A stretch of 64,000 bases of DNA from Terebella lapidaria (taxonomy: Eukaryota > Annelida > Polychaeta > Terebellida > Terebellidae), in assembly GCA_949152475.1 (NCBI GenBank), contig OX424562.1, positions 41,650,157 to 41,714,156 of the forward strand. Reading direction: 5' to 3'. Under the pieces are notes generated by a model. That model was given only the letters and a program-made list of their open reading frames with translations, did no database searches and was not told where the DNA came from. Positions 15,108 to 40,424 of this stretch are shown here, one piece after another. Position numbers and translations under genes: made by a program. Position 1 is the first letter of the stretch. Each line of letters starts with the position of its first letter.

Positions 15108-16257
15108 TGTAACGGTTTTGGGGCGTACCCAAAAGTTTCCCCTAGGTAATTCTGTTAGTGTTTTGTGATATTATGGTTAAATAACCGTTTATTAAAATGT
15201 ATATGTGTTTAAAGGTTCATACGGTTCCGTATTGTAATGTTTAAAAGGTTATCCGTCTCGGAACTTGGTATATTTATGATGTTGGTAAAGCCGGAGACGG
15301 AGCCGGAACCGGAGACGGAACCGGAGACGGAGCCGGAACAATGGAGTACAAAAACGTAATGACGTTATTTCCGGAAGGTCACGTGATCAGCCTCGTTTTC
15401 GGTTTAAAAGGTGACGTGTCAGCCACTGATTGGTTCTAGAGTGTTTTTAGAAATCCGGAAAATATCAGTGTTCTGGCGGGCTATGACGTCACAATAGGTT
15501 GGTCACGTGACATGGGTCTCAGGTCTATAAAAGCCCCCGCTTCACAGCGGACGGCGGAGTTGGTGTCCTGACGTCGACCTGTGCAGACCCCTTCTCCCAT
15601 AGTAGAGTACTCCCTTGTTCCGGATAGAGTCATCCAGATGATAGCAGTTAAGTCTTCCGACTGTGCACTTGGAAAATGAACATGAAAACTTCAACCGAGT
15701 TGTTTTTCCGTGTTCGTTAGGGAACTGGAATTTATAATAAAGTTAGTTCGCCGGAAAAGAAAGTAATACGGAGTAAAGGGAGATAAGACCACAGTCGGTT
15801 AAGACCAAGTTGTAATGACGTCTTAGGGTGATCTAAGAACCCAGATCACCGAGGAAGGAGACGGAGACGGAGGTGGAATTCAACGGAGCAACTACGGAGG
15901 CGGTATCGGACGGAGCAGTTGCAGAGACGGGAACGACGAAGCAGTTGCAGAGGCGGTACCGGACGACGGAGTTGCAGAGGCAGTACCTGACGGAGCGGTT
16001 GCGGTAACCGGAAGTGGGAACACTTCCGAGATACTCCATTTCAGGTGCAGTCGCAGGTTGCGGTGAGGCGGAGCCAACCGGAGCAGATTGCAGTGCGGCG
16101 GAACCTGGCAGAGCGGTTGCAGTATTCGGAAACGGCAACGTTCCCGGATTCTTTATTCCAGGCGCAGTCGCAGTTTGCAGACGGTTTGTAAGACGGAAAA
16201 CGACGGAGCTGTTGCAGTAAAGCGGTATCCCGACGGAGCAGTTGCAGTACCCGGAGA
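15108..16257 (+). repeat. 5' LTR of element 1 (3' part deleted)
   Basis: Matches 25028 onwards to about 16255, then jumps directly into gag sequence. About 190 bp of LTR end, the primer binding site and the N-terminal half of gag are missing compared with element 2. From about 15890 the LTR consists of degenerate CGGAGCAGTTGCAG-type repeats. Confidence 0.85.
15429..15533 (+). promoter_or_regulatory. LTR promoter: inverted CCAAT, CRE, E-box, TATA
   Basis: ATTGG at 15429-15433, TGACGTCA at 15484-15491, CACGTG at 15504-15509 and TATAAAAG at 15526-15533. The same order and spacing occur in the 3' LTR and in element 2 (39998-40047 on the minus strand). A start about 25-30 bp downstream of the TATA box would give the genomic RNA. 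Confidence 0.8.
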
Positions 16258-16902
16258 CCGGGGGAGAAAACATTTGTTTTCCAGGCAGAATTGCAGACAC
16301 GGAAATTGCAGCCGGAGGAGGAGCTGTCCGAGCTGGCCAGAGACATACGGAGCAAGACGCGGCTAGCTTACCCAAAAGCAGATCCGGCAACAACAGAAGT
16401 GCTCATGAAGATGCATTTCTGCAACAGTCTGACTAACCGAGATATGCGGTTATCGGTATTGAAAAGCCACCCGGAAACGCTGTCGCAGGCCCTGGCTTTC
16501 GCTACCGAGTATGAGAGTATTATGAAGACGGACAACAGCAGACCAGCGGAGCGACACCGGACGAGGCAGCTGAACACAGAGCCGGAGTGGAGCCAGCAGG
16601 TGAACGAATTGCGGAAGCAAGCCGAGCAGACTCAGCAGCAGTTGGCGGATCTGATGACTCAGGTCAAGGAAGCGGTTAGCCGGCAGCAGCAGCAGCGCAG
16701 TTCCCGAGCGGATTTAGAATGCTTCAACTGTGGCCGGAAAGGGCATTTTGCCCGAGACTGTAGGCAGCCGAAGCAGCAGCAGCAGCGGCGTCAACCACAA
16801 CAGCAGCAGTCGCCGCGACAACAGCAGCAGCAGCAGCCGCAGCAGCAGCAGCAGCAACAACTGCAGCAGCCACGACAGCAGCAGCAGCAGCCGGAAAACT
16901 AG
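16258..16902 (+). pseudogene. gag of element 1 (N-terminally deleted)
   Basis: Nucleocapsid-containing C-terminal part of Gag. It holds a capsid-like region (QPEEELSELARDI ... LTNRDMRLSVLKSHP), a coiled Gln-rich linker, a CCHC zinc knuckle (CFNCGRKGHFARDC, about 16719-16760) and a long polyGln tail coded by CAG repeats, then TAG at 16900. Element 2 has the full-length version of about 424 residues. Here a deletion fused the 5' LTR to codons near the middle of Gag, so there is no start codon in the proper place. Pol is read in the -1 frame relative to Gag and overlaps the polyGln tail, which suggests -1 frameshifting for Gag-Pol in this family. Confidence 0.85.
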
Positions 16903-19508
16903 AGCAGGTCGCGGAAAAGGGGAAATCCGGGACCCGGAAGAGAGGACACCCCCATAACCGACAGGTGGTTCACGGACCCGGTCCCAGGGGCGAGGTGGGC
17001 ATGTGTGTGACAGCCAGAGTATGCGGAGAGCCAGTAACGCTGATAATCGACACCGGCAGCACTGTCACAATGCTCAACCTACAAACCTGGGAACGGATCC
17101 GGAAACCCGGAATGAAGCTGAAGCGGTCGCCGATTCGTCTTTCAATGGTTGACGGAAGTAACATACGGACACATGGCCGGAAAGAACTCCCACTCAACAT
17201 CGCCGGAGTAGCTGAGACCGTGACGTTCGAGATTGCAGATTGTGAAGACGAAGGAATACTGGGAATGGATTTCATCCGTTCTCGGATATCCGGCATAAAT
17301 TTCGACCGAATGACCATGCAGATGGGCAGCCAGGAGGTGTTCCTCACCATGTTCGAGCAGACCAGGGAGCCGTTTCCGATCAACGCTGTAGCAGATTACC
17401 AAATTCCGCCGGAAACGGAACAGCTGATAATGGGACAAGCAGAGAGCGTCCGGGAAGCAGAAGGAGTACTAGAAATGCCGCAGGAGCCTACTGAGAAAAG
17501 ACCTTGGCTGATCGGGAGAACTTTATCCCGGATAAAGCAAGGAACAGTCCCGGTTCGAGTGATCAATGTGATGGCGGAGCCGGTAATCATCAAGAAAGGA
17601 GCGCAGCTGGCGACGATGACCACCTTAGCAGCCGGTTGCAGTGTTGTGCCGTTGGCGGAGCGGAGCAGGAAGGTGCAGATTTCCACGGAGTCGGAGGCCG
17701 GGCGGAATTGGAGCGGGTACGAGAAGCTGCGGCAGTTAGCAGAGCAGACCCAGGATGCAGTGCCGAGTCATTTCCGCGAGAGAGTAACCGACCTCCTATT
17801 TCGGAATAAGCCGACCTTCAGTAATGATGCCGGAGAACTGGGGCAGACCAACGAGGTACAACATCAGATAAACACGGGCAGTCACCGGCCGATTAAGCAG
17901 CCAACCAGACGAATTCCGCCAGACAAGAGAGAGCTGGTGAGCAGTCTGATTCAGGAGATGAAAGACAAGAACGTCATTGAAGAAAGTAGCAGTCCGTGGG
18001 CTTCCCCGATTGTTCTCGTGAAGAAAAAGGATGGGACCACCCGGTTCTGTGTCGATTACCGGCGGTTAAATGCAGTCACGGAGAAAGATGCTTATCCGTT
18101 GCCGAGAATAGACGACACCATAGCAGCCTGTGCAGACGCCAAATGGTTCTCCACTCTCGACCTGACCAGTGGCTACTGGCAGGTCGGGATGGATGAAGAC
18201 GCCCGGAAATAGTCGGCCTTCTGTGTTCCTGGCGGCCTTTACCAGTTCAAAGTAATGAGTTTCGGCTTGTGCAATGCTCCGGGTACGTTCGAGCGGTTGA
18301 TGGAGAAGGTGCTAGGCGGTTTGTCCTGGAAGACCTGCCTCATATATCTGGACGACATCATAGTCTACAGCAAGACCCTGGAGGATCACATCCGTGATCT
18401 TCAGGAGGTGTTCAGCAAGCTGAGAGAGGCAGACCTAAAAGTCAAACCGTCAAAATGCAAGTTCTTCCAGCCGGAGGTGTCTTTCCTGGGTCACATAGTC
18501 GGCAGAGACGGTATCCGCACCGACCCGGCAAAAACGGAGGCAGTACGGAAGTGGCGGACACCCACCAACCTGACGGAGCTGCGCAGTTTTCTGGGACTTT
18601 GCTCCTATTACCGGAAGTTCGTGCCGAAGTTCTCCGAGATTGCAGCGCCGCTGAATCACTTGACGGAAAAAGGGGTGCAGTTCCGGTGGCAGACGGAGCA
18701 AGACCAGGCATTTGCAGAGCTGAAGAACCGCCTAGTATCGACACCGATACTCGGGTACCCAAGGGAGCAAGGCCGATATATCCTGGACACGGACGCCAGT
18801 GACACCGGGCTGGGAGCAGTACTGTCACAGAAGCAGGGCAACCAGGAGCGGGTGATAACCTACTTGAGCCGCAGCCTAACCAAAGAAGAACGGAGATACT
18901 GTGTCACCCGGAAGGAGCTCCTGGCGGTTGTGTTTGCGGTACAGAAGAATAAGCAGTACTTGCTGGGACGACACTTCCTTCTTCGCACAGATCATGGCAG
19001 TCTTACCTGGCTTATGAATTTCAAGGAGCCCCAGGGGCAGGTAGCCCGGTGGATTGAGCACCTGAGTGAGTTTCATTTCGACATCGAACATCGTCCGGGG
19101 CGAATCCATAATAACGCAGATGCCTTGTCCAGATCCCCATGCAGCCAATGCGGAAAAATCGACTGGAAACAAGCCAAGATAGACGCCTGGAACTATGGAG
19201 AAAGGATCCGGCAGACACGAAGTGAAGAAACTCTTCAGCCCAAGCCAAGGAAGGGGGGACGCCGGAAACGGTCACGGAGATCGGGCGGAGAAGCAGAACT
19301 GACGGAGGAAGCGTCCCGGAAGCCGGTTGCGGTTGCAGTGATGGAGAAAGCAGCGTCCCGGAGAAGGCAGTTCCAGGAAAAGCGGATGCGGTTGCAGAGC
19401 AGATTAGGCTGGCGGAAAATGCGGACCAGGATACTGTGCTGGGGCAGAAATATCGACCAGATGATTTGCGGAGAATGCAGCAAGCAGAACCTTGGTACCC
19501 ACTGGTGA
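16863..19508 (+). pseudogene. pol of element 1: protease, reverse transcriptase, RNase H
   Basis: The protease has the active site LIIDTGSTV (D at 17049) and a later ILGMDFI. RT blocks follow: [21 protein letters not shown], the palm LTSGYWQVGMDEDARK, and YLDD (18345-18356). RNase H has [35 protein letters not shown] and RTDHGSLTWL. The clade is Ty3/gypsy by domain order. A TAG at 18210-18212, just after the second palm motif, interrupts RT. A deletion inside a coding repeat near 19355 shifts the frame before integrase; the shifted frame stops at 19508. The element therefore cannot make an intact Pol. The frame is open upstream of the first Met (16965) and overlaps gag. Confidence 0.9.
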
Positions 19509-20842
19509 CGTCGCTGATCGACGGGAGCGGTACAGCTGGCAGTGCAGACTTTTCCAGCATGAGCAGCGAGGAGAAAGTGCTGTACGGAATGCGGAAGACC
19601 TTGCTGAAAGTCGACGGAGTAGTCTACCGGAAATGGAAAACGGCAGAAGGAACCAGCCGAATGCAGTTAATAACCCCGAAGGAGCTGAGACAGGAGATTT
19701 TCCGTCTGGCCCATCAGAGCCGGACGGGAGGACACCTCGGAAGCAGAAGGATGGCGGCTAGCATTCGGAGGCGGTATTTCTGGCCGGCTATGATGCGGGA
19801 CATAAAGCAGTGGGTGCTGAGCTGCGACGAATGTGCGTCAAGAAGTATGCAGAACTTGAAACGATCTCCGATGCAGAAATACCGGGTTGGAGCGCCCATG
19901 GAGAGGGTGGCAATGGACGTGATGGGTCCGTTACCTAAATCCACCCGGGGGAACCGGTACATCTTAGTAATCGGTGATTACTTCACCAAGTGGGTAGAGG
20001 CTTACCCGATGCTAAATCAGGAAGCGGTGACGGTTGCGGACATATTCGTCAACCAGTTTGCAGCGCGGTACGGTATCCCGATGGAGATCCACACCGACCA
20101 AGGCAGAAATTTCGAGTCCGACTTGCTGAGAAATGTTTGCAGAATCCTGGGGATTCACAAGACACGGACTACCGCTTTCCGACCTCACCGATTCAACCGG
20201 ACGCTGCAGCAGATCCTGAGCCTGTACGTAAGCGAGCGGCAGACCAACTGGGATCAGCTAGTTCCGTTGGCGATGGCAGCTTACCGGAGTACCCCGCAGG
20301 AGACAACCGGGCAGAGTCCCAACTTGCTGATGCTGGGCAGAGAAGTCAACACTCCGGTAGAGTTACTGATTGGCAGACCGCCGGGAGAATCAACAGCAGA
20401 AGTAACAGAGTATGGCAGTCAGCTCCGGGAGCGACTAGAAGCGGTATACAAGGCGGTTCGAGCGAAATCTGGCAGAGAGATGGAACGGCAGAAGAAGCTG
20501 TACGACCGGAGGAAGGTCGACAATCAGTTCCAGCCAGGAGACCGAGTGTGGATGGCGGTCAAAACACGGAAGAAGGGCAAGGCACCCAAGTTGCAGAGGA
20601 AGTGGAGCGGTCCAAAGCTAGTGCTGAGCAGATTTACCGACGTGACCTACGAGATTGCAGAGAGTGAAACTCGGCAGAAGGTGGTTCACTTCGATTTGCT
20701 GAAACCGTATAATGGTGTCAAGCATCCGAGATGGATGAGGCAGAGAATGGCGGATTCCTGGAGGCAGACGGAGCCGCCGAAGCAGAGTAGTGTTCCGGAG
20801 ACGGAACAGACGGTCTTTGAGTCGGATACGGACTCGGAGTAA
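19359..20842 (+). pseudogene. integrase of element 1 (catalytic Glu region deleted)
   Basis: From the Met at 19436: the HHCC zinc domain H93, H100, C130 and C133 (LAHQSRTGGH ... CDEC), core Asp 161 (VAMDVMGPLP) and Asp 221 (IHTDQGRNFES), and a C-terminal module with GDRVWM ... KWSGPKLVLSRF ending in a chromatin- or DNA-binding-like tail. At about 20186 an in-frame deletion (net 18 bp relative to element 2) removes the block holding the third catalytic acid (S-D-G-x-I-E before FNRTL). Integrase should therefore be inactive even if expressed. The ORF ends at 20842 after ESDTDSE. Confidence 0.88.
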
Positions 20843-21591
20843 AGCCGCAAAGGACGAAGAAATATGAGAAGACGGAGTGAGCTGTAGAGCAGGAGAAGGA
20901 GATAGCTGAGACCCTGGTAAAACGTTGAGTTCCGGCAGAGAGCGACCGCAAGAAGTCGGAACAGTGAGCAAGTGCTGGTTCCGGAAACAGGGCGGAGAAA
21001 GGAAGCAGAGCGGAAAGCGGTGCAGAGACCGGATAGAGACATCCTAGAGGTTCTGACTGGGTTGAGCGCATAGTCAACCAGTCCAGGGTAGCGGCCAGGG
21101 GTCCAGAAGAACCTGGGTTAGCGGTCTAGTATCTCCAGAGAAGCAGCTACACGTCTTCCGTATTCAGAGAATTAAGACGGAAAAGTTTTCCAGCTGTGGA
21201 CATCCAACCGGAGTTTCCACTTAGCAGAGACAGTAAACCGACTGCAGATTGACAGAAACGGAGAAACATCACCCCAGATAGGAAGGCGCCTCCTTCTGGA
21301 CAAGAATGTATGCAGTTTCCAGTGTCGACAAGCAGTAATACCAGTGAGCAGATATGCAGTTGACGAAACAGTACAGATGGCGGAAACGCCCAACTTGCAG
21401 TCTAGATGTTCGTCTGACAGGCAGATTCAACTGGCTGAGACTCTATTCAACCCTCCTGATGGCAGAGATACTTCAAAATTGCAGATACTTCGCTCGGAGA
21501 AGCAGTTGAAAGGGAGCCGGAAAAACCCGGAGAAGCCGGTTGAGCCGGAGACGGACACCTCTCGGTTAACGGTTGAGTTTTTGCATAATTA
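20843..21591 (+). other. Post-pol region with a possible small ORF (ORF X)
   Basis: After integrase there are about 330 bp with no candidate gene. A frame then stays open from about 21177 to 21643 without a stop; its first Met in this copy is at 21344 (99 codons). Element 2 has the same frame with a Met giving 112 codons (33903-33565). Two single-base indels between the copies, about 25 bp apart, cancel each other and keep the frame. The protein has no known motif, and its end overlaps promoter A, so it may simply be stop-poor GC-rich sequence. Confidence 0.35.
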
Positions 21592-21661
21592 TGACGTCAC
21601 TCCTGAGGCAGCCAATCAGCGTGGAGCTTTTCCAGTCACGTGAGCAGAAAGGGTATAAAAG
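21592..21661 (+). promoter_or_regulatory. Internal promoter A (CRE, CCAAT, E-box, TATA)
   Basis: TGACGTCA 21592-21599, CCAAT 21612-21616, CACGTG 21637-21642, TATAAAAG 21654-21661. The elements are the same as in the LTR promoter, and all four are conserved in element 2 (33547-33616, minus strand). It lies 236 bp upstream of the ATG of ORF A and well after the end of pol. Confidence 0.75.
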
Positions 21662-21897
21662 GGCCTTGAAATCGGGCTCTGAGAGCAGTTGAAGAGCAGA
21701 CCTCGAGCTGTGCACATCGCTGTTAAAGTTTGGCGGAATCAAATCAAGTCCAGCATTTTCCGGCAGCGGCAGATTTTGCAGTGAAAAACGACTAAGTGTT
21801 TCCCGGAAGACCAACAGTCCGGAGAAGCGGTGCAGCAGAAGCGGTGTAGTAAAAGCGGTGCAGTAGATCGACAACTTCAGTTTCCCGGCTTTCCGGA

Positions 21898-22563
21898 ATG
21901 GCCTACTCGGCGTTCCTTGGAAGACAAGATCGCGGCCGGAGCAGAGATTGGGCAAGCCCTCAGCCCCTGGATTATAGCCGGCTGTGTAAGCGGTGTGACC
22001 GGATGTTCGAGAGTGAGACGGACAGGAGACGGCATGTGTGCCCAACCCTGAGGTATCATTGCTGTTTGTGTGCCTTCTACGGCAACCGGGCGAACGACCT
22101 TAGGCGGCATCTCCGGGAGATGCACGGCTGGAAGTACCCTTCCGGGAACCGTCCTCCTCAGGATGAGGCAACCCTCAACCATGTGGGAACCTTCGATTCG
22201 GCCTGGCAGGGAACAGCAACGCAGTCCCGGCGGAAGCGGTTCCGGAGATTCTGCACACAGTCTCCCAGGGAGAAACCAGTTCCGGAGACTTATGCGGACC
22301 AGCTTCCGTTCGGACCTGATTGGGATGCCGGAGCAGCCGCCCCCATCGGACAACCGGAGCAGTTAGATCTACCGGAATGGGCCCCGGACCCGCAGGGCTG
22401 TCTCCGGGCCGCCGAAGAAGACCAAGCGGAGGATTGGGAGGCGGAAATCCGTGCCAGAGAATACCGGCCTCCATCTCCCACCTCGGAACCGGAGATGGAT
22501 GAGTCGGAGTATGTGACGGCAGATGAGGAATCCTGGACGGAAGCGAAGGCAGTGTGGCAGTAG
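21898..22563 (+). CDS. ORF A: two-finger zinc protein encoded by the LTR element
   Basis: 221 residues. Finger 1 is C30-x2-C33-x12-H46-x-C48 (C2HC form). Finger 2 is a classical C55-x2-C58-x12-H71-x4-H76. The rest is Arg/Pro/Glu-rich, becoming acidic at the C terminus (EPEMDESEYVTADEES). The small DNA- or RNA-binding domain plus acidic tail suggests a regulator, perhaps of the element's own promoters or packaging; this is inference. It is preceded by its own promoter (21592-21661) and is the same strand as gag-pol. The start is the first ATG after the TATA box that gives a long frame and is shared with element 2. In element 2 the frame is cut at residue 134 by a C-to-T stop. It is not related to env or any standard retroelement gene I recognise. 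Confidence 0.8.
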   Translation: MAYSAFLGRQDRGRSRDWASPQPLDYSRLCKRCDRMFESETDRRRHVCPTLRYHCCLCAFYGNRANDLRRHLREMHGWKYPSGNRPPQDEATLNHVGTFDSAWQGTATQSRRKRFRRFCTQSPREKPVPETYADQLPFGPDWDAGAAAPIGQPEQLDLPEWAPDPQGCLRAAEEDQAEDWEAEIRAREYRPPSPTSEPEMDESEYVTADEESWTEAKAVWQ

Positions 22564-22750
22564 CGGAGACAGATGGCAGTGGGGCGGTAGCAGAGGCAGA
22601 TGGCAGTGTAGCGGTAGACGGAGGCGGTTGGCAGTTTGGCGGAGACGGAGAAGAAGAGCAGTGACAGATAGCAGCAACAACAACACGAAAAAAAAAAAAT
22701 ATATTATTTATCCAAGAAGACCACCAGGAGGAGTTGCAGTTGCTGAGCAG
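22564..22750 (+). other. ORF A 3' region
   Basis: GGAG/CGGT-rich degenerate repeats, then an A-rich run (22690-22700). No AATAAA is clear, although AAAAATATATTATTT may serve as an AU-rich processing element. Confidence 0.35.
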
Positions 22751-22801
22751 CCAATCATCAAGCAGATAAGCCAGTCACGTGACTTCCAGAGACTATAAAA
22801 G
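22751..22801 (+). promoter_or_regulatory. Internal promoter B (CCAAT, E-box, TATA)
   Basis: CCAAT 22751-22755, CACGTG 22776-22781, TATAAAAG 22794-22801. E-box-to-TATA spacing is 18 bp, nearly the same as promoter A (17) and the LTR (22). No CRE is visible. The set is conserved in element 2 (32416-32466). It is 78 bp upstream of the ORF B ATG. Confidence 0.75.
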
Positions 22802-22878
22802 GGGCAGATAGCTGTTACCGGATGCAGAAGGCAGTTTGCTGTAGCTGAGTCAACATCGACACAAAGCAGAGAATCAGA

Positions 22879-24771
22879 ATGCCGAAAGTAAAGACAACAC
22901 CCCGCAAGCCCCGCCCTCACCGGTGTGGAGACTGCAACCTGGAATTCAAGAGCAAGCACACGTTGCTCCGGCATGTCACGGAGCAGCACACGAGTGAAGT
23001 CACCGTCTTTGCCTGTCCGCAGTGTGACCATTGGAGCAGACGGAAAGAGGGGACACAGAAACATCTGCAGTCCCGACACGCAATGGGCGCGAACCCGATT
23101 CGACTAAGGGTTGGCAGAGAGCAGTTTGAGGAGAAAAGCCTCCGGTCCAAGATGACTCCACGGAAAAGCAAGAAACCAGTAACATGGCTTGACCAGTTGT
23201 CGGATACGGAGTCGGGAGGTTCGGTTTCGTCCCGGACCCGGTACCGTTGCGGTACCCAGTCGGTGGCCACACTAGCAGCTGACGTTTCGTCCACGGAGGC
23301 GGAGAGCAGTTCGGAAGAAGAAGCAGAGCTGAAAATTATGGCAAGTGAAGACGAGTTGCAAGACCCGGGGGACCCGAAGCCAGTTAAGCCACCGGTGACC
23401 CGAAGTTCTTCCCGGAACACCTCCCGGAAAAACAGCCCGGACCCATCTCGAGGTACCGGAGCAGATCGAGACCGCGGAAAGAAGCGGAGTCGCAGCTGTT
23501 CGCCGGATAATTCCGGTCGCCATCAACGCCGGGAATATAGGAAAGAGAGCCCGGAGCGAGCCAAGGACCGAGGCGGAGAACGTGCCCAAGAGGAGAAACG
23601 ACACACCCCGCCCAAGTCTTCAGGAGGCAGCGTCAAGGGAAAAGGCAAGGGGATGTATGACTACAAGTTCCGGCTGTTGGAGGAAGGTTCCAGCGGAGCA
23701 ACGGCAGAAGTTGGAGTAGCGGACATTGCGGAAATGCAGAGCAGGGACGATGAGGAAGACCTTTTCCGGAGCCCACCTCCGAGAACGACTAGCAGTGGCA
23801 GAGCAGTGAGCAGCGTGATTGTCCGGCCCGGAGGCGGGGCAGAAAGCAGATCCAGCGGCCGAGCCGATAGCAGAGCAGATAGCCGAGCCGATAGCAGAGC
23901 AGATAGCCGAGCCGATAGCAGAGCAGATAGCCGAGCCGATAGCAGAACAGATAGCAGAGCAGATAGCCGAGCGGACAGCAGACCCGTTGGCAGATCCGGA
24001 GGCAGATCAGAGACCAAAGCGGAAGGCGGAACCCGGAGCAGAGCTGGCAGTGAGACGGAGACCCGAGGATCCACGAAGAGAACTTTGCCGGCAACCATTC
24101 AAGCAGTAGCCGGAAGCAGAACCAGTTCAGCGGCTAGGGATGACGGAATGGAGTCTTCCGCATCTGACCGAAGCCATGCGGATGTGCAGAGAGCCCGGAG
24201 GAGTATCCTGGTAGATCAAGCCAGAGCTACACCCGGAATCCTGTCTCCGGTGGAGACCCGGCCTCGTCAGTCTTCCAGTGAGCGGTCCGGAAGGAGCCAA
24301 GCCCGAGCACCAACCCTGAGTCCACCCTACACATTCTACCCGTTTGGCGGTCCTTCAACTCAACGGTGTCCGTCCCACTGTTTCCCGGTGAATATTGGAG
24401 GACGGAGCGCTTCCGTCTTTGCGCCTGCAGTCCCGGAGCACGCCAGATACTATGCAGTACGTTGGGGACCGGAGCAGTGGGGGCCAGCCGAGATGAGAGA
24501 CTCCGGCGTCTACGTGGAGATCATGGAGCAGAGAGAGTCACCGTTTGGTCTCGTCCCGACCCATCAGATCGTCCGGATTCCAGATTGGTCCATCCGGGAC
24601 GAACGCCTCAGGAATGGGTTCTACGTCCCGCCCCAGTGGAGCCTCCATGATCCCGATCTTCTCCCGGTTGATGCCAGAGGAACAAGCTTCGGACGACCGT
24701 TGGTACCAAATACCATTCCACCTCGTCCGCCGTCGGGGAGCAGTTCGCGCCGTGATACTGGTGGGCAGTAG
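22879..24771 (+). CDS. ORF B: C2H2 zinc-finger / SR-repeat protein encoded by the LTR element
   Basis: 630 residues, intact. Two classical C2H2 fingers: C16-x2-C19-x12-H32-x4-H37 and C46-x2-C49-x12-H62-x4-H67. A long basic, Ser/Arg-rich and probably disordered region follows, with an A-D-S-R tetrapeptide array at about residues 327-370. The conserved C-terminal domain of about 130 residues (from PYTFYPFGG to the end) is rich in Trp, Pro and aromatics. This suggests a nucleic-acid-binding protein with a protein-interaction tail. The product is not homologous to Gag, Pol or Env as far as I can see. The same ORF is open in element 2 (615 codons) with a shorter ADSR array, although gag and pol are broken in both. 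Start: the first ATG after promoter B, in a good context (gaatcagaATGC). Confidence 0.85.
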   Translation: MPKVKTTPRKPRPHRCGDCNLEFKSKHTLLRHVTEQHTSEVTVFACPQCDHWSRRKEGTQKHLQSRHAMGANPIRLRVGREQFEEKSLRSKMTPRKSKKPVTWLDQLSDTESGGSVSSRTRYRCGTQSVATLAADVSSTEAESSSEEEAELKIMASEDELQDPGDPKPVKPPVTRSSSRNTSRKNSPDPSRGTGADRDRGKKRSRSCSPDNSGRHQRREYRKESPERAKDRGGERAQEEKRHTPPKSSGGSVKGKGKGMYDYKFRLLEEGSSGATAEVGVADIAEMQSRDDEEDLFRSPPPRTTSSGRAVSSVIVRPGGGAESRSSGRADSRADSRADSRADSRADSRADSRADSRTDSRADSRADSRPVGRSGGRSETKAEGGTRSRAGSETETRGSTKRTLPATIQAVAGSRTSSAARDDGMESSASDRSHADVQRARRSILVDQARATPGILSPVETRPRQSSSERSGRSQARAPTLSPPYTFYPFGGPSTQRCPSHCFPVNIGGRSASVFAPAVPEHARYYAVRWGPEQWGPAEMRDSGVYVEIMEQRESPFGLVPTHQIVRIPDWSIRDERLRNGFYVPPQWSLHDPDLLPVDARGTSFGRPLVPNTIPPRPPSGSSSRRDTGGQ

Positions 24772-25014
24772 TCGTCGCAAGTCGTCGCAAGTGAAGTCGG
24801 CGCAAGGAGAAGAAAGAAGAACCGTTTCCCGGATTCTAGTATAATTAAAGAGTTAAAAAGTGGGAAACGGAACAAGCAAGATATCCGGGTACAGTGACGG
24901 TAAACTAGTTAAGAGATACCAGTACCCGGATCACGGAAACAGTTGTGTTTGATTTTACGGACAGTTTAACGGTTGACAATTTGTATATTTGTGATATTGT
25001 TCTGTTCAGAGTCT
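24772..25014 (+). other. ORF B 3' region of element 1
   Basis: Contains a GTCGTCGCAAGTCGTCGCAAG direct repeat at about 24773-24793 and AT-rich sequence leading to the PPT. No coding frame. Confidence 0.5.
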
Positions 25015-25027
25015 AAGGAAGGGGGAG
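25015..25027 (+). other. Polypurine tract
   Basis: AAGGAAGGGGGAG lies immediately before the 3' LTR TGTAACGG, the expected position of the plus-strand primer. Element 2 has lost this site together with its 3' LTR. Confidence 0.85.
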
Positions 25028-26398
25028 TGTAACGGTTTTGGGGCGTACCCAAAAGTTTCCCCTAGGTAATTCTGTTAGTGTTTTGTGATATTATGGTTAA
25101 ATAACCGTTTATTAAAATGTATATGTGTTTAAAGGTTCATACGGTTCCGTATTGTAATGTTTAAAAGGTTATCCGTCTCGGAACTTGGTATATTTATGAT
25201 GTTGGTAAAGCCGGAGACGGAGCCGGAACCGGAGACGGAGCCGGAACAATGGAGTACAAAAACGTAATGACGTTATTTCCGGAAGGTCACGTGATCAGCC
25301 TCGTTTTCGGTTTAAAAGGTGACGTGTCAGCCACTGATTGGTTCTAGAGTGTTTTTAGAAATCCGGAAAATATCAGTGTTTTGGCAGGCTATGACGTCAC
25401 AATAGGTTGGTCACGTGACATGGGTCTCAGCTCTATAAAAGCCCCCGCTTCACAGCGGACGGCGGAGTTGGTGTCCTGACGTCGACCTGTGCAGACCCCT
25501 TCTCCCATAGTAGAGTACTCCCTTGTTCCGGATAGAGTCATCCAGATGATAGCAGTTAAGTCTTCCGACTGTGCACTTGGAAAATAAACATGAAAACTTC
25601 AACCGAGTTGTTTTTCCGTGTTCGTTAGGGAACTGGAATTTATAATAAAGTTAGTTCGCCGGAAAAGAAAGTAATACGGAGTAAAGGGAGATAAGACCAC
25701 AGTCGGTTAAGACCAAGTTGTAATGACGTCTTAGGGTGATCTAAGAACCCAGATCACCGAGGAAGGAGACGGAGACGGAGGTGGAATTCAACGGAGCAAC
25801 TACGGAGGCGGTATCAGACGGAGCAGTTGCAGAGACGGGAACGATGAAGCAGTTGCAGAGGCGGTACCGGACGACGGAGTTGCAGAGGCAGTACCTGACG
25901 GAGCGGTTGCGGTAACCGGAAGTGGGAACACTTCCGAGATACTCCATTTCAGGTGCAGTCGCAGGTTGCGGTGAGGCGGAGCCAACCGGAGCAGATTGCA
26001 GTGCGGCAGAACCTGGCAGAGCGGTTGCAGTATTCGGAAACGGCAACGTTCCCGGATTCTTTATTCCAGGCGCAGTCGCAGTTTGCAGTAAGACGGAAAA
26101 CGACGGAGCTGTTGCAGTAAAGCGGTATCCCGACGGAGCAGTTGCAGTACCCGGAGACGGAAACGCCTCCGGATCCTTACTTTACAGGTGCAGTTGCAGA
26201 TTAGCAGTCGGACAACGGTTAAGAGGTCCATTCCAGACCACGCTACCAACCTTAGAGACTTCTAGCCGGAGTTCAACCGTACAGCAGTAGCAGTATCCCG
26301 GAGTTTTACCGTTTCAGCTCCGGTTAAATAACAACTCACCCACCTCCCTAGAAAACCGGTTTATCAAGACGTCACAGAAGGGTGCAAAACCCGTTACA
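25028..26398 (+). repeat. 3' LTR of element 1 (complete)
   Basis: 1371 bp from TGTAACGG to CCGTTACA. It carries the same promoter block (TGACGTCA 25392-25399, CACGTG 25412-25417, TATAAAAG 25434-25441). The second half is a degenerate repeat of GGAGCAGTTGCAG/CGGTTGCGGTAACCGG-like units. This is unusually long and structured for a gypsy LTR, and the minus-strand frames through it are artefacts of the repeats. Confidence 0.9.
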
Positions 26399-27853: not shown

Positions 27854-27885
27854 CGTTTTACCTCGACGTTTTGGATAAAACCAGG
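27854..27885. repeat. 32-bp insertion duplicating LINE sequence
   Basis: ACCTCGACGTTTTGGATAAA is present twice with CGTTTT between; copy 1 (about 430-460) has it once. The length is not a multiple of three, so it disrupts ORF2. It looks like a slippage or template-switch event. Confidence 0.8.
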
Positions 27886-28533: not shown

Positions 28534-28557
28534 AGGCCCTGGATTCGGTTCAATATC
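28534..28557 (-). other. 2A-like ribosome-skipping peptide (DIEPNPGP), copy 2
   Basis: Same motif as in copy 1, here in frame with the endonuclease (PATKKLKICHTNARS follows). The residues before it, ISILLIVAG, fit the helical upstream requirement of 2A sequences. Confidence 0.88.
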
Positions 28558-30261: not shown

Positions 30262-30489
30262 TATATCACATATATACAAATTTTTAACCGTTAAACTGTC
30301 CGTATAATCTAACACAACTGTTTCCGTGATCCGGGTACTGGTATCTCTTAACTAGTTTACCGTCACTGTACCCGGATATCTTGCTTGTTCCGTTTCCCAC
30401 TTTTAACTCTTAATTATACTAGAATCTGGGAAACGGTTCTTCTTTCTTCTCCTTGCGCCGACTTGGCTTGCGACGACTTGCGACGACTA

Positions 30490-32337
30490 CTACCCACCAG
30501 TATCACGGCGCGAACTGCTCCCTGACGGCAGACGAGGTGGAATGGTATTTGGTACCAACGATCGTCCGAAGCTTGTTCCCCTGGCATCAACCGGGAGAAG
30601 ATCGAGATCATGTAAACTCCACTGGGGTGGCACGTAGAACCCATTCCTGAGGCGTTCATCCCGGATGGACCAATCTGGAATCCGGACGATCTGACGGGTC
30701 GGGACGAGACCAAACGGTGACTCTCTCTGCTCCATGGTCTCCACGTAGACGCCGGAGTCTCTCATCTCGGCTGGCCCCCACTGCTCCGGTCCCCAACGTA
30801 CTGCATAGTATCTGGCATGTTCCGGGACTGCAGGTGCAAAGACGGATGCACTCCGTCCTCCAATATTCACCGGGAAACAGTGGGACGGACACGGTTGAGT
30901 TGAAGGACCGCCAAACGGGTAGAAAGTGTATGGTGGACTCTGGGTTGGTGCTCGGTCTTGGCTCCTTCCGGACCGCTCACTGGAAGACTGTCGAGGCCTG
31001 GTTTCCACCGGAGACAGGATTCCGGGTGTAGCTCTGGCTTGATCTACCAGGATACTCCTCCGCGCTCTCTGCACGTCCGCATGGCTTCGGTCAGACGCGG
31101 AAGACTCCATTCCGTCATCCCTTGCCGCTGAACTGGTTCTGCTTCCGGCTACTGCTTGAATGGTTGCCGGTAAAGTTCTCTCCGTGGATCCTCGGGTCTC
31201 CGTCTCACTGACAGCTCTGCTCCGGGTTCCGCCTTCCGCTTTGGTCTCCGCTCTGCCTCCGGATCTGCCAATGGGTCTGCTGTCCGCTCGGCTATCTGCT
31301 CTGCTATCTGCTCTGCTATCGGCTCTGCTATCTGCTCTGCTATCGGCTCGGCCGCTGGATCTGCTTTCTGCTCCGCCTCCGGGCCGGACGATCACGCTGC
31401 TCACCGCTCTGCCACTGCTAGTCGTTCTCGGAGCTGGGCTTCGGAAACTGTCTTCCTCGTCGTCTCTGCTCTGCATTTCTGCAATGTCCGCCACTCCAAC
31501 TTCTGCCGCTACTCCGCTGGAACCTTCCTCCAACAACCGGAACTTGTAGTCATACACCGCCTTGCCTTTTCCCTTGACGCTGCCTCCTGAAGACTTGGGT
31601 GGGGAGTGTCGCTTCTCCTCTCGGCCACGTTCTCCGCCTCGGTCCTTGGCACGCTCCGGGCTCTCCTTCCTATATTCCCGGCGTTGATGACGGCCGGATT
31701 TCTCCGGCGAACGGCTGCGACTCAGCTTCTTTCCGCGGTCTCGATCTGCTCCGGTACCTCGAGATGGGTCCGGGCTGTTTTTCCGGGAGGTGTTCCGGGA
31801 GGAACTTCGGGTCACCGGCGGCTTAATCGGCTTCGGGTCCCCTGGTTCTTGTAACTCGTCTTCACTTGCCATAATTTTCAGCTCTGCTTCTTCTTCCGAA
31901 CTGCTCTCCGCCTCCGTGGACGAAACGTCGGCTGCTAGTGTGGCCACCGACTGGGTACCGGAACGGTACCGGGTCCGGGACGAAACCGAACCTCCCGACT
32001 CCGACTCCGTATGCGACAACTGGTCAAGCCGTGTTACCGGTTTCTTGCTTTTCCGCAGAGTCATCTTGGACCGGAGGCTTTTCTCCTCGAACTGCTCTCT
32101 GCCAACCCTTAGGCGAATCGGGTTCGCGTCCATTGCGTGTCGGGACTGCAGATGCTTCTGTGTCCCCTCTTTTCGTCTGCTCCAATGGTCACACTGCGGA
32201 CAGGCGAAGACGGTGACTTCACTCGTGTGCTGCTCCGTGACATGCCGGAGCAACGTGTGCTTGCTCTTGAACTCTAGGTTGCAGTCTCCACACCGGTGAG
32301 GGCGGGGCTTGCGGGGTGTTGTCTTTACTTTCGGCAT
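30490..32337 (-). CDS. ORF B of element 2 (C2H2 / SR-repeat protein)
   Basis: 615 codons, intact, the same protein as 22879-24771. Both C2H2 fingers are unchanged. The ADSR array is shorter, and there is an extra Ser-Glu before GGSVSS. Substitutions are spread along the disordered region, while the C-terminal aromatic domain is well kept. It is the only long frame of this element that has no stop or frameshift. Function unknown; a nucleic-acid-binding accessory protein is inferred from the fingers and SR-like region. Confidence 0.85.
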   Translation of the reverse strand: MPKVKTTPRKPRPHRCGDCNLEFKSKHTLLRHVTEQHTSEVTVFACPQCDHWSRRKEGTQKHLQSRHAMDANPIRLRVGREQFEEKSLRSKMTLRKSKKPVTRLDQLSHTESESGGSVSSRTRYRSGTQSVATLAADVSSTEAESSSEEEAELKIMASEDELQEPGDPKPIKPPVTRSSSRNTSRKNSPDPSRGTGADRDRGKKLSRSRSPEKSGRHQRREYRKESPERAKDRGGERGREEKRHSPPKSSGGSVKGKGKAVYDYKFRLLEEGSSGVAAEVGVADIAEMQSRDDEEDSFRSPAPRTTSSGRAVSSVIVRPGGGAESRSSGRADSRADSRADSRADSRADSRADSRPIGRSGGRAETKAEGGTRSRAVSETETRGSTERTLPATIQAVAGSRTSSAARDDGMESSASDRSHADVQRARRSILVDQARATPGILSPVETRPRQSSSERSGRSQDRAPTQSPPYTFYPFGGPSTQPCPSHCFPVNIGGRSASVFAPAVPEHARYYAVRWGPEQWGPAEMRDSGVYVETMEQRESPFGLVPTRQIVRIPDWSIRDERLRNGFYVPPQWSLHDLDLLPVDARGTSFGRSLVPNTIPPRLPSGSSSRRDTGG

Positions 32338-32466: not shown

Positions 32467-32895
32467 CTGCTCAGCAAACTGCAACTCCTCCTGGTGGTCT
32501 TCTTGGATAAATATTTTTTTTTTTTTCGTGTTGTTGTTGCTGCTAACTGCCACAGCTTTTTCTTTTCCGTCTCCGCCAAACTGCCAACCACCTCCGTCTA
32601 TTGCTACACTGCCAACCGCCTCCGTCTACTGCCACACCGCCTCCGCTTCCGTCCAGGATTCCTCATCTGCCGTCACATACTCCGACTCATCCGTCTCCGG
32701 CTCCTAAGTCTCTGCCGCTGAAATGGGAGATGGAGGCCGGTATTCCCTGGCACGGATTTCCGCCTCCCAATCCTCCGCCTGGTCTTCTTCGGCTGCCCGG
32801 AGACAGCCCTGCGGGTCCGGGGCCCATTCCGGTAAATCTAACTGCTCCGGTTGTCCGATGGCTGCTCCGGCATCCCAGTCAGGTTCAAACGGAAG

Positions 32896-33300
32896 CTAGT
32901 CCGCATAGGTCTCCGGAACTGGTTTCTCCCTAGGAGACTGTGTGCAGTATTTCCGGAACCGCTTCCGCCGAGACTGCGTTGCTGTTCCCCGCCAGGCCGA
33001 ATCGAAGGTTTCCACTCGGCTGAGGGTTGCCTCATCCTGAGGAGGACGGTACCCGGAAGGGTACTTCCAACCGTGCATCTCCCGGAGATGCCGCCTAAGG
33101 TCGTTCGCCCGGTTACCGTAGAAGGCACACAAACAGCAATGATACCTCTGGGGTGGGCACACATGCCGTCTCCTGTCCGTCTCACTCTCGAACATCCGGT
33201 CGCACCGCTTACACAGCCGGCTATACTCCAGTGGCTGAGGGCTTGCCCAATCTCTGCTCCGGCCGCGATCTTGTCTTCCAAGGAACGCCGAGTAGGCCAT
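32896..33300 (-). pseudogene. ORF A of element 2 (truncated at residue 134)
   Basis: Both zinc fingers are intact and identical in spacing to 21898-22563. A TAG replaces the Gln codon that follows ETYAD, removing the proline-rich and acidic C-terminal third. Further small indels follow downstream (32640-32880). The fingers could still be made as a short protein. Confidence 0.8.
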
Positions 33301-37730: not shown

Positions 37731-39005
37731 CTAGTTTTCCGGCTGCTGCTGCTGCTGTCGTGGCTGCTGCAGTTGTTGCTGCTGCTGCGGCTGCTGCTGC
37801 TGCTGTTGTCGCGGCGACTGCTGCTGTTGTGGTTGACGCCGTTGCTGCTGCTGCTTCGGCTGCCTGCAGTCTCGGGCAAAATGACCTTTCCGGCCACAGT
37901 TGAAGCATTCTAAATCCGCTCGGGAACTGCGCTGCTGCTGCCGGCTAACCGCTTCCTTGACGTGAGTCATCAGATCCGCCAACTGCTGCTGAGTCTGCTC
38001 GGCTTGCTTCCGCAATTCGTTCACCTGCTGGCTCCACTCCGGCTCCGTATTCAGCTGCCTCGTCCGGTGTCGCTCCGCTGGTCTACTGTTGTCCGTCCTC
38101 ATAATACTCTCACACTCGGTAGCAAAAGCCAGAGCCTGCGACAGCGTTTCTGGGTGGCTTTTCAATACCGACAACCGCATATCTCGGTTAGTCAGACTGT
38201 TGCAGAAATGCATCTTCATGAGCACTTCTGTTGTTGCCGGGTCCGCTTTTGGGTAGGCTAGCCGCGTCTTGCTCCATATGTCTCTGGCCAGCTCGGACAG
38301 CTCCTCCTCCGGCTGCAATTTCCGTGTCTGCAACTCCGCCTGAAAAACAAATGTTTTCTCCCCCAGACAAAACTGCTGTTTTAATGCCGCCACAACCGTA
38401 TCAAAGCTGCGTCTCTGCTCCGCGGACAGATCCAGTAGTATGCTGCGGGCGTTACCCCTAAAACTGACACATAAGTTCAGTGCCTTTTCCTCTGCTGTCC
38501 AACGGTAGTACCGAGCGTATTCAAGGAGGTGAGCCTCATACTCCGGCCACGGATCAGTTCCGTCGTATGTCATTAATCTGGCCACTCCTGCCCTTGGTGC
38601 TGGTTGTTGTACTGCTTCTGCCTGCTGCTGCTTTCCGGTTACTGCCAGGTGCTGCTGAAACACCTCCATTTGGGTCGCCAATAATCTGGTCAGGTTGTCG
38701 ACTAAATTTTCTCCGCCTTCCGGTTCCGCATCCGGTTCCCGATCGCCAGCCTGGTCCGGAAAGTTAATTTCCGCCTCTGCTAACCGCTCTGCAGGCTGTA
38801 CTCCTTGAGGAACCCGAAGGGGCTCTTCTGCAACTGCTTTCTGCATTTCCGGCTGCATCAGCTTTCGCTCGGCAGGACGAACTGCTTCCTTTTCCGCAAC
38901 CAGCATCTGCAACGGCTCAGCTCCTACTGCTCCTACAGGCTGCTCCGTGTTCGACACGGCTGTCTTCAGCTGCTGTTCCGCCAATTTGCCCCGTCTAGTA
39001 GTCAT
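37731..39005 (-). CDS. gag of element 2, full length
   Basis: About 424 codons from the ATG at 39005 (MTTRRGKLAEQQ); an upstream Met at 39056 lies in the LTR end and is not the likely start. Regions: a variable N-terminal third; a capsid-like part with YDGTDPWPEYEAHLLEYARYY and QQFCLGEKTFVFQAEL, typical of gypsy Gag (retrotransposon gag domain); a Gln-rich linker; a CCHC knuckle (37866-37907); and a polyGln tail. It assembles particles and packages RNA in related elements. The frame is intact, unlike element 1. The -1 frame (37908-37621) is open across the polyGln region, where Gag-Pol frameshifting is expected. Confidence 0.85.
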   Translation of the reverse strand: MTTRRGKLAEQQLKTAVSNTEQPVGAVGAEPLQMLVAEKEAVRPAERKLMQPEMQKAVAEEPLRVPQGVQPAERLAEAEINFPDQAGDREPDAEPEGGENLVDNLTRLLATQMEVFQQHLAVTGKQQQAEAVQQPAPRAGVARLMTYDGTDPWPEYEAHLLEYARYYRWTAEEKALNLCVSFRGNARSILLDLSAEQRRSFDTVVAALKQQFCLGEKTFVFQAELQTRKLQPEEELSELARDIWSKTRLAYPKADPATTEVLMKMHFCNSLTNRDMRLSVLKSHPETLSQALAFATECESIMRTDNSRPAERHRTRQLNTEPEWSQQVNELRKQAEQTQQQLADLMTHVKEAVSRQQQRSSRADLECFNCGRKGHFARDCRQPKQQQQRRQPQQQQSPRQQQQQQPQQQQQLQQPRQQQQQPEN

Positions 39006-39015
39006 ACTGCAGATG

Positions 39016-39033
39016 ATCCCACCGCTGCCACCA
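39016..39033 (-). other. Primer binding site, tRNA-Leu type
   Basis: TGGTGGCAGCGGTGGGAT on the minus strand begins six bases after the 5' LTR. It is complementary to the 3' end of animal tRNA-Leu (AAG/TAG type, ...ATCCCACCGCTGCCA plus CCA) from my knowledge of those tRNAs. Element 1 has lost this site. Confidence 0.8.
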
Positions 39034-39039
39034 AAAAGT

Positions 39040-40424
39040 TGTAACGGGTTCTTCACCCTTCTGTGACGTCTTGATGAACCGGTTTTCTTGGGAGGTGGGT
39101 GAGTTGTTATTTAACCGGAGCTGAAACGGTGAAACTCCGGAAAACTGCTACTGCTGTACGGTTGAACTCCGGCTAGAAGTCTCTGAAGGTTGGTAGCGTG
39201 GTCTGGAATGGACCTCTTAACCGTTGTCCGACTGCCAATCTGCAACTGCACCTGTAAAGTAAGAATCTGGAGGCGTTTCCGTCTCCGGGTACTGCAACTG
39301 CTCCGTCGGGATACCGCTTTACTGCAACAGCTCCGTCGTTTTCCGCCTTACTGCAACTGCGACTGCACCTGGAATAGAGAATCCGGGAACGTTGCCGTTT
39401 CCGAATACTGCAACCGCTCTGCCAGGTTCCGCCTCACTGCAAACTGTTCCGGTTGGCTCTGCCTCACCGCAACCTGCGACTGCACCTGAAATGGAGAATC
39501 TCGGAAGTGCTCTCACTTCCGGTTACCGCAACCGCTCCGTCAGGTACTGCCTCTGTCACTCCGTCGTCCGGTACCGCCTCTACAACTGCTTCGTCGTTCC
39601 CGTCTCTGCAACTGCTCCGTCCGGTACCGCCTCCGTAGTTGCTCCGTTGAATTCCACCTCCGTCTCCGTCTCCTTCCTTGGTGATCTGGGTTCTTGGATC
39701 ACCCTAAGACGTCGTTACAACTTGGTCTTAACCGACTGTGGTCTTATCTCCCTTTACTCTGTATTACTTTCTTTTCCGGTGAACTAACTTTATTATAAAT
39801 TCCAGTTCCCTAACAAACACGGAAAAACAACTCGGTTGAAGTTTTCATGTTTATTTTCCAAGTGCCCAGTCGGAAGACATAAACTGCGATCATCTGGATG
39901 ACTCTATCCGGAACAAGGGAGTACTCTGCTATGGGAGAAGGGGTCTGCACAGGTCGACGTCAGGACACCAACTCCGCCGTCCGCTGTGAAGCGGGGGCTT
40001 TTATAGACCTGAGACCCACGTCACGTGACCAATCTATTGTGACGTCATAGTCCGCCAAAACACTGATATTTTCCGGATTTCTAAAAACACTCTAGAACCA
40101 ATCAGTGGCTGACACGTCACCTTTTAAACCGAAAACGAGGCTGATCACATGACCTTCCGGAAATAACGTCATTACGTTTTTGTACTCCATTGTTCCGTCT
40201 CCGTCTCCGGTTCCGTCTCCGGTTCCGGCTCCGTCTCCGGCTTTACCAACATCACAAATATACCAAGTTCCGAGACGGAAAACCTTTTAAATATTACCAA
40301 TACAGAACCGAATGAACCTTTAAACACATATACATTTTAATAAACGGTTATTTAACCATAATATCACAAAACACTAACAGAATTACCTAGGGGAAACTTC
40401 TGGGTACGCCCCAAAACCGTTACA
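39040..40424 (-). repeat. 5' LTR of element 2
   Basis: 1385 bp with CCGTTACA/TGTAACGG ends. The promoter block is CTTTTATA 39998-40005, CACGTG 40022-40027, TGACGTCA 40040-40047. It contains the same degenerate GTTGCAG repeats (39290-39660) and several small differences from the element 1 LTRs. Confidence 0.9.

Follow-up and report, generated by a model that had tools for sequence, protein, structure and literature searches.

Organization of the element in the window

The window, which is the whole 64,000-nucleotide stretch of DNA that was analysed, contains two copies of a Ty3/gypsy element. In copy 1, the reading frames of two zinc-finger protein genes, ORF A (21898-22563) and ORF B (22879-24771), are uninterrupted and lie between the end of pol (20842) and the 3' LTR. 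The features of the two copies are as follows.

15108..16258, plus strand: copy 1 5' LTR with its 3' end missing (alignment to the 3' LTR)
16291..16902, plus strand: remainder of copy 1 gag with one CCHC knuckle (knuckle by eye; Pfam zinc knuckle in copy 2 gag)
16965..20842, plus strand: copy 1 pol with protease, RT, RNase H and integrase; reading frame interrupted in places (Pfam)
21592..21661, plus strand: putative internal promoter of ORF A, with TGACGTCA, CCAAT, TCACGTGA and TATAAAAG (motifs)
21684..21897, plus strand: presumed leader of the ORF A transcript, 214 nt, ATG-free (sequence)
21898..22563, plus strand: ORF A, 221 aa, with a C2HC and a C2H2 finger, a basic patch and an acidic tail
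22751..22801, plus strand: putative internal promoter of ORF B, with CCAAT, GTCACGTGAC and TATAAAAG (motifs)
22879..24771, plus strand: ORF B, 630 aa, with two C2H2 fingers, a Ser/Arg/Asp repeat and an element-specific C-terminal domain
25028..26398, plus strand: copy 1 3' LTR, with TGACGTCA, GTCACGTGAC and TATAAAAG; AATAAA at 25583 and 25644
30490..32337, minus strand: copy 2 ORF B, 615 aa, intact
32629..33300, minus strand: copy 2 ORF A, interrupted by two in-frame stops
37731..39056, minus strand: copy 2 gag, 441 aa, intact
39040..40424, minus strand: copy 2 5' LTR, with the primer site next to it

The assignment to Ty3/gypsy, made earlier in a sequence-only reading, is borne out by its pol, gag and LTR features. 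Pfam matches to protease, RT, RNase H and integrase follow one another in that order over 16965-20842, the integrase matches the Ty3 Gag-Pol chain 7q5b as well as foamy-virus integrase chains, and copy 2 gag has a CCHC knuckle (Pfam PF00098, E 3e-7). The LTR termini are of the TG...CA type (TGTAACGG...CCGTTACA), and a tRNA primer site is present which we take to be that of tRNA-Leu. These termini rule out the Troyka lineage, for which the available part of the source gives CG...CG. The 5' and 3' LTRs of copy 1 differ by 7 mismatches over 1133 aligned bases, in addition to 20 gap columns, and this copy has lost the stretch from the end of its 5' LTR through the primer site to the beginning of gag. 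The copy 1 flanks (...TATAG and ATACT...), which were inspected for a target-site duplication of 4-6 bp, are unequal. The same layout had been claimed for both copies, which holds for the intact ORF B of copy 2, whereas ORF A of that copy is interrupted by two stops and its 3' LTR is absent.

Copy number and linkage

The host assembly (761.6 Mb) contains at least 70 full-length matches to ORF B and at least 226 matches to ORF A. The order integrase, ORF A, ORF B was found in all 20 fetched copies, and ORF A lies 5' of ORF B in 17 of 18 additional copies. Because of these numbers and the constant order in the fetched copies, A and B are assigned to the element: they are integral genes of a high-copy Ty3/gypsy family, as the description of two extra zinc-finger genes 3' of pol had implied, and in the host assembly they are neither confined to the window nor found only as host genes. 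A single insertion accident is ruled out by the two copies in the window and the many genome-wide. Both genes also occur in three divergent copies, which were selected via a promoter pattern that allowed a CACGTG-TATA spacing of 8-20. A search for divergent subfamilies that did not use the promoter pattern returned, besides L030 itself, copies with about 79% likeness to it that apparently belong to the main family.

Coding evidence and protein features

ORF A and ORF B are under purifying selection. Estimates of dN/dS, a check proposed with the initial description, were 0.22 for A and 0.19 for B, compared with 0.08 for gag, 0.13 for PR-RT, 0.13 for IN and 0.75-0.78 for the spacers; the value for ORF B over 16 copies was 0.13. 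All four internal indels that distinguish copy 1 from copy 2 in A and B are multiples of three. ORF A does possess the two zinc fingers attributed to it, the first of which is corrected here to C2HC-like. Cys2His2 motifs occupy residues 55-76 of A and residues 16-37 and 46-67 of B, and the finger ligands are retained in the 16 aligned A sequences, the exceptions being L019, where one Cys is changed, and L010, where finger 2 is frame-shifted. The finger domains of both proteins score under the Pfam cut-offs. Residues 150-221 of ORF A include 21 acidic and 5 basic residues, and ORF B has Ser/Arg/Asp repeats together with a basic run. The likeness between the A and B proteins is weak (53 of 2000 shuffles were equally good), which rules out that they are clear recent duplicates. 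Only A and B were found between pol and the LTR, with no env gene. A hydrophobic span is absent from both (top 19-residue mean 0.38 for A and 0.81 for B), and without a membrane span neither can be read as env. Up to E 1, the Pfam scan matched neither A nor B to the TRP28 (transposase 28) domain, and it revealed no domain known from a silencing antagonist.

Relatives outside the element were sought in several collections. When the 8000 candidates sharing most words with the whole of ORF B were scored, four matches were obtained. Three of them are to repeat-like stretches of proteins that, judging by their Pfam labels, are unrelated, and the fourth is to a protein with multiple fingers (25% over 19%). 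The C-terminal part gave no matches. The C-terminal domain of ORF B had been called conserved, which is correct among element copies, the only place where a relative was found. ORF B was not confirmed in viral contigs or in bacterial and archaeal genome contigs, neither ORF A nor the integrase was found in viral contigs, and the DNA from 21600 to 24770 had no match in phage records. ORF A has a single match in the protein collection, P0005, which is 91% identical over the aligned residues and has 32 extra residues. Since the fetched copy L020 has an extra stretch nearly equal to that of P0005, P0005 offers no evidence of spread to other hosts and is probably, on this likeness, the element family again.

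Promoter-like modules upstream of ORF A and ORF B

The module of ORF A consists of TGACGTCA at 21592, CCAAT at 21612, CACGTG at 21637 and TATAAAAG at 21654, and ends 236 nt 5' of the ATG. That of ORF B consists of CCAAT at 22751, CACGTG at 22776 and TATAAAAG at 22794, and ends 77 nt 5' of the ATG. The LTR promoter was said to have the same parts. A and B do share CCAAT, CACGTG and TATAAAAG, and the LTR has CACGTG and TATAAAA in common with both and TGACGTCA in common with A only, but it lacks a CCAAT box at the corresponding place. The combination CACGTG-N8-40-TATAAAA occurs seven times in the 64 kb, only at element promoters (three LTRs, two A and two B), compared with a mean of 0.0005 when the element interior was shuffled 2000 times by a Markov procedure. 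Alignment of the A and B promoters beats 1000 of 1000 shuffles, and their score is equalled by 19 of 1000 segments drawn at random from the element, a set that may overlap the promoters themselves. Assembly-wide, CCAATCA...CACGTG...TATAAAAG has 792 matches versus one for the reversed control, and among the matches listed (roughly the first 100) those of A type and of B type are often paired about 1 kb apart.

The exact module is retained at B in 18 of the 20 fetched and 17 of the 18 additional copies, at the LTR in 19 of the 20 and at A in 15 of them. The CACGTG-TATA spacing in module-bearing copies is N12 at B, N11 or N10 at A and N16 at the LTR, including in the three divergent copies, where motif identity is partly built in since they were selected by promoter pattern. 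By site, variability near the motifs is not significantly lower in motifs than in flanks (B, 2/26 versus 14/109, p 0.74; A, p 0.36; LTR, p 1), and by letters only A falls below 0.05 (A, p 0.014; B, 0.072; LTR, 0.29). Over 300 nt at B, motifs are less variable than flanks (letters, p 2.5e-8; sites, p 0.02), a difference that local repeats may inflate. The A leader matches the start of the LTR R region at 25 of 35 positions in register, which none of 5000 shuffles equalled and which was equalled by one of 3227 element segments in a set that includes the 5' LTR. The stretch from the expected start to the ORF is ATG-free for both genes, for B only if the start falls beyond the ATG at 22822, 2 bases 5' of the assumed start.

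Two ancient alleles of ORF A

The main surprise, absent from the sequence-only reading, is that ORF A exists as two alleles (classes) with a dS of about 1.3 in elements that are otherwise 92-100% identical where compared. Between class I and class II elements, identity drops at the ORF A start codon and returns beyond the ORF A end, so ORF A has the boundaries of a coding cassette. The promoters of the two classes are nearly equal. These sequence comparisons indicate that the alleles predate the element subfamilies or have crossed them. The cassette was probably moved by template switching in reverse transcription.

Between classes, dN/dS of ORF A is 0.19 with saturated dS, which leaves positive selection unsupported as the origin of the classes. 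The N-terminus (residues 1-27) diverges strongly, with dN/dS of 0.77 versus 0.07 in the fingers, regional ratios that are rough because dS is saturated; dN/dS exceeds 1 in no region of ORF A. When the tree of ORF B is labelled by A class, the minimum is three changes, of which strongly supported branches force only one, so that the B tree does not demonstrate repeated recent exchange.

Comparison with known systems

The earlier statement that no family with this layout had been described was too strong, since the available text of the articles cited here describes an accessory gene with its own promoter in maize Grande and an internal promoter in foamy viruses. Gene23 of Grande, a Ty3/gypsy element, lies in antisense in the interval between pol and the 3' LTR (PMC7264820). 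Gene23 and the TRP28 ORFs of the Retand lineage resemble A and B in position and element type, and in having a product that is nuclear or predicted to bind DNA, like the role proposed for A and B (PMC7264820; PMC11963269). They differ in that they are plant genes with another domain type and are antisense (with two stated exceptions in Retand), whereas the element described here carries two finger genes on the gag-pol strand, each with its own module. In foamy viruses (Spumaretrovirinae), regulatory genes (Tas, Bet) are expressed from an additional promoter close to the 3' end, and Tas binds both this internal promoter and the LTR (PMC4929722). Foamy viruses belong to a different element family, possess env and have a single internal promoter, located between env and the 3' LTR (PMC4929722).

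CERV of Cer1, a Ty3/gypsy element of C. elegans, is an accessory protein that is nuclear, may have a zinc motif and is encoded between pol and the 3' LTR, but the suggested motif is of the C4 type, the protein is required for export of genomic RNA, and the word promoter is absent from the main text (PMC10309623). MDG1-group elements of Drosophila (412, mdg1) are Metaviridae with two extra ORFs, of which sORF1 has a helix-turn-helix prediction; unlike A and B, these lie mostly 5' of gag, and sORF2 is a short fusogen-type membrane protein for which the authors suggest that no alternative promoter is used (PMC11952523). DrFV-1 of zebrafish combines gag-pol with three extra ORFs that have no known relatives, but is termed spumaretrovirus-like, and finger domains and internal promoters are not mentioned in the text available (PMC2774666). 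The accessible parts of two further articles (PMC8220671; PMC8556966) contain nothing on such accessory genes except a reference to Grande. The literature searched, as far as its available text extends, yielded no element with a pair of finger genes on the sense strand that each have their own promoter.

Proposed mechanism and alternative explanations

We consider it rather probable that the element represents a complex-retrovirus-like Ty3/gypsy family in which A and B are nuclear regulators made from internal promoters and working like foamy-virus Tas. The LTR would direct gag-pol expression, and two internal Pol II promoters 3' of pol, built from the same E-box and TATA parts, would direct the two accessory genes, whose transcripts probably use the common LTR polyadenylation site. 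Based on its two fingers, basic patch and acidic tail, the most likely role of ORF A is in the nucleus, as a DNA-binding regulator with target sites in the element's own promoters. For ORF B, the likeliest role is that of another nuclear accessory protein, which would bind DNA or RNA. More tentatively, the three promoters of shared design might answer A in a self-regulating circuit, in which A would be an exchangeable allele maintained by long-term balancing selection, persisting in two versions older than the subfamilies and passed between elements as a cassette, in the manner of immunity or mating-type alleles. Elements could then vary in regulation or host evasion while having all else in common.

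Splicing is the usual route to downstream genes in complex retroviruses, and to env in many retroviruses. A and B might likewise come from spliced or read-through LTR transcripts, with the internal motifs being enhancers or relics of LTR duplication, as the resemblance of the A leader to the start of R and the loss of the exact A module from 5 of 20 copies would allow. This origin is nevertheless unlikely, given that a donor of the GTRAGT type looked for is absent from the first 2.8 kb of copy 2, that the best acceptor-like tracts are weak (the one 5' of A has 12 pyrimidines in 17 positions, the one 5' of B has 10), and that the E-box, TATA and spacing of B are retained in 35 of 38 copies. B could instead be a packaging or nucleocapsid-like RNA-binding protein, which its repeats and basic run and the single knuckle of gag would suit; this seems improbable, as gag already supplies a knuckle and a promoter-like module of its own fits expression of B separately from gag.

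A similarly low probability is given to A and B serving chiefly to counter silencing by the host (through chromatin or small-RNA pathways), with an arms race keeping both A alleles. Such a role would agree with old alleles in otherwise similar elements and with the rough ratio at residues 1-27 of A. Against it, no silencing-antagonist domain was recognized by Pfam, positive selection is undemonstrated with every region of A at or below 1, and the near-equal promoters of the two classes fit a shared DNA target equally well. C2H2 fingers are common host domains. Together with the known capture of genes by LTR elements (PMC7264820, in the part available), this would favour captured host finger genes carried as passive cargo. 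That explanation is very improbable, being already contradicted by selection on A and B close to that on gag-pol, and also opposed by the copy numbers, the linkage and the presence of both genes in the three divergent copies.

If the regulatory reading is correct, the organization of complex retroviruses, with several promoters and encoded regulators, has arisen independently in Ty3/gypsy elements, and an allele of a regulator can greatly exceed in age the element that bears it. The family would provide a natural series of variants in both promoters and fingers, and because many copies reside in one genome, both the circuit and the allele exchange could be tested by ordinary RNA and reporter work.

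Two copies of one Ty3/gypsy element

In the window (G000:C8:41650157-41714156, from an assembly of 761.6 Mb) a single Ty3/gypsy element is present as two copies:

15108-26398, + strand: copy 1, with truncated 5' LTR, gag remainder, pol broken in places, ORF A, ORF B and complete 3' LTR
about 30263-40424, - strand: copy 2, with 5' LTR, intact 441-aa gag, broken pol, ORF A with two stops and intact ORF B, lacking the 3' LTR

The pol domains follow the Ty3/gypsy order of protease, RT, RNase H and integrase, with matches of the integrase to chains from Ty3 and foamy virus. Copy 1 is young since its LTRs differ at only 7 of 1133 aligned bases. The two copies diverge by 3-5%, a share of which may be later than the insertion of copy 2. 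A non-LTR retrotransposon, the right half of which contains endonuclease and RT by Pfam while the left half (13981-15107) was judged by eye, seems to enclose copy 1 and adjoin copy 2, which indicates that the two insertions were independent.

Copy 1 apparently interrupts this retrotransposon (13981-15107 and 26399-30244), the other end of which meets copy 2 internally at the place expected of the 3' LTR; part of the retrotransposon is present a second time at 1-2805. A 42-bp tandem repeat at 35790-36111, in the RNase H-integrase linker of copy 2, is longer there than in copy 1. The flank of copy 2 at 40421-41820 recurs with 98% identity as a 1.4-kb stretch at 4425-5826, with weaker likeness at 51938-58137, and an irregularly spaced array of units of about 134 bp lies at 9075-12753.

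Linkage of ORF A and ORF B to the element

ORF A and ORF B belong to the element. The sequence-only reading had proposed a check of whether the finger genes stay linked to it in other copies, and in the host assembly they do: the order integrase, A, B was found in 20/20 fetched copies (those placed directly behind the window's copies among the ORF B matches), among which L013 and L027 are partly rearranged or deleted. The same order occurs in all three copies representing the divergent subfamilies, which were chosen by promoter pattern. Another 20 loci were chosen by likeness to a divergent B, and L032 (the same locus as L030) and L036 (copy 2 itself) were set aside; in 17 of the 18 further copies that remain, A is upstream of B. 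With 70 of 3331 candidates scored, ORF B has at least 70 matches, all of which span residues 1-630 and 59 of which are stop-free. ORF A has at least 226, with 150 of 686 candidates scored, and both lists are biased to good copies. Of the 20 fetched copies, 14 have an open full-length ORF B and 13 have an open ORF A that keeps the usual tail. L027 (G000:C4:19617633-19624504) contains a repeated block, with A and the first part of B followed by an A tail and a full B region, which records a rearrangement in the accessory region.

Selection on the accessory genes

Between copies 1 and 2, dN/dS is 0.22 for A, 0.19 for B, 0.08 for part of gag, 0.13 for PR-RT and 0.13 for integrase, as against 0.75 and 0.78 for the spacers read as codons; the 224 bases 3' of B, with few changes, give 0.40. 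Both genes change more at third positions than at first and second ones (p 0.02 for A, p 1e-7 for B), an excess absent from both spacers in the same comparison. With CpG sites removed the excess persists for B (p 0.0002) and becomes marginal for A (p 0.044). Among 16 intact copies of ORF B, dN/dS is 0.13.

Over the 1 kb that separates pol from ORF A (20843-21897) the two copies differ at 27/1044 positions, a lower rate than at third codon positions, whether those of gag-pol (70/1132, p 4e-5) or those of A and B (71/833, p 1e-8). This slow change may reflect cis signals or the mark of recombination.

Two ancient forms of ORF A

When the ORF A of copy 1 is aligned with those of 15 fetched copies, the other five having a broken A, there are two classes with unlike N-termini (starts MAYSAF and MALQQ) and a protein identity between classes of 58-71%. 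Once L010 and L019 are dropped for their frame-shifted tails, class I has 10 copies and class II has 4. Outside ORF A, elements of both classes are 92-100% alike. Mean identity over the 40 between-class pairs is 94.5% in the leader, 71.9% in the first 100 codons of A, 97.6% in the last 150 nt of the A-B spacer and 97.3% in the 3' part of integrase. The drop starts at A's ATG (one pair, copy 1 and L011, base by base), and identity has recovered to 97% at about 22629 or before (150-nt windows; two pairs, with L011 and L015).

At synonymous sites the classes diverge by about 1.3 over the whole gene and by more than 2, or to saturation, in the fingers, while dN/dS is 0.19 overall and 0.07 in the fingers, which argues that both classes are old and constrained. 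The pattern looks like exchange of an old gene rather than a young gene changing rapidly. Of the three divergent copies, L030 groups with class I in the finger tree, where the dividing branch (100/100) places L029 (flagged for odd composition) and L031 on the side of class II, whereas in the integrase tree the main-family elements of both classes form one group apart from L029, L030 and L031 (99/99). This conflict implies that the A alleles are older than the subfamily split or have crossed between subfamilies. Positions -1, 3 and 6 of the finger 2 helix hold identical residues in both classes, which suggests that the two share one DNA target. The tails of A recombine too: in L012, L021 and L024 a front of class I is followed by an end that resembles class II. 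Class II makes up 8/20 and 1/17 copies in two small, score-picked samples.

Promoter-like modules

Three sets of promoter motifs are present in the element:

A promoter, 5' of ORF A: TGACGTCA, CCAAT, TCACGTGA, TATAAAAG
B promoter, 5' of ORF B: CCAAT, GTCACGTGAC, TATAAAAG
LTR promoter: TGACGTCA, GTCACGTGAC, TATAAAAG

CACGTG followed after 8-40 nt by TATAAAA occurs seven times in the window, always within element promoters (mean 0.0005 in 2000 shuffles of the interior), and all five occurrences of TGACGTCA are at an LTR or the A promoter. Across the whole assembly, CCAATCA...CACGTG...TATAAAAG has 792 matches versus 1 for the reversed control; among about the first 100 matches listed, nearly all are A- or B-type by eye, the exceptions being C1:28964022 and C1:41793082. 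At G000:C2:419204-420677, two A-type promoters with equally shortened spacer lie 1430 bp apart on one strand, perhaps through tandem duplication.

The exact B module is present in 18/20 fetched and 17/18 further copies, the exact A module in 15/20 fetched copies and the exact LTR module in 19/20. The five lacking an exact A module are L010, L018, L020 and L025, which retain the B and LTR modules, and L027, which retains the LTR module only. Over 19-21 copies (without L027 and the divergent copies; for A also without L010 and L018, for the LTR also without L017 and copy 2), motif sites have 0.36-0.44% minority letters versus 1.7-4.5% in wider surroundings. Immediate flanks are nearly as conserved as the motifs; by letters only A differs significantly from them (p 0.014), and no site-wise test of motifs against immediate flanks is significant.

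In the first 35 nt from the presumed A start, 25 bases equal those of the LTR at the same distance from the TATA, a likeness matched by 0/5000 shuffles and by 1/3227 element segments, a set that includes the 5' LTR. On this likeness, the A promoter region may come from an LTR. Counted from 30 nt past the TATA start, neither leader has an ATG ahead of its ORF; for B an ATG at 22822 lies two bases ahead of this assumed point, and the ATG-free A leader is weak evidence because ATGs are sparse there.

Known systems and proposed expression

Retand-type elements with accessory genes are a cited precedent (PMC11963269). Cer1, MDG1-group elements and DrFV-1 have extra ORFs of other kinds, and the main text of a survey of mollusc LTR elements (PMC6238403) contains neither 'ORF' nor 'zinc finger'. 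The full-text literature, mostly papers free of subscription, yielded neither an element with two sense finger genes, each with its own promoter, nor one whose accessory gene comes in old alleles.

The main alternative to internal promoters is that A and B are expressed by splicing from LTR transcripts. The first 2.8 kb of copy 2 has no GTRAGT donor and the acceptor tracts before A and B are poor, though unusual sites could serve such splicing. Most likely, the LTR makes genomic and gag-pol RNA, and two internal promoters make short RNAs for A and B, both of which would end at LTR signals. Candidate signals are:

25583 and 25644: AATAAA
24844 and 25111: ATTAAA

The product of ORF B is a finger protein of larger size, which has Ser/Arg/Asp repeats and, at its C-terminus, a domain specific to the element. 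The ORF A protein has two fingers, a basic patch and an acidic tail, a composition that is most likely that of a transcription regulator. Foamy viruses possess an internal promoter and the transactivator Tas (PMC4929722), and by analogy A would act on the LTR and the internal promoters of the element.
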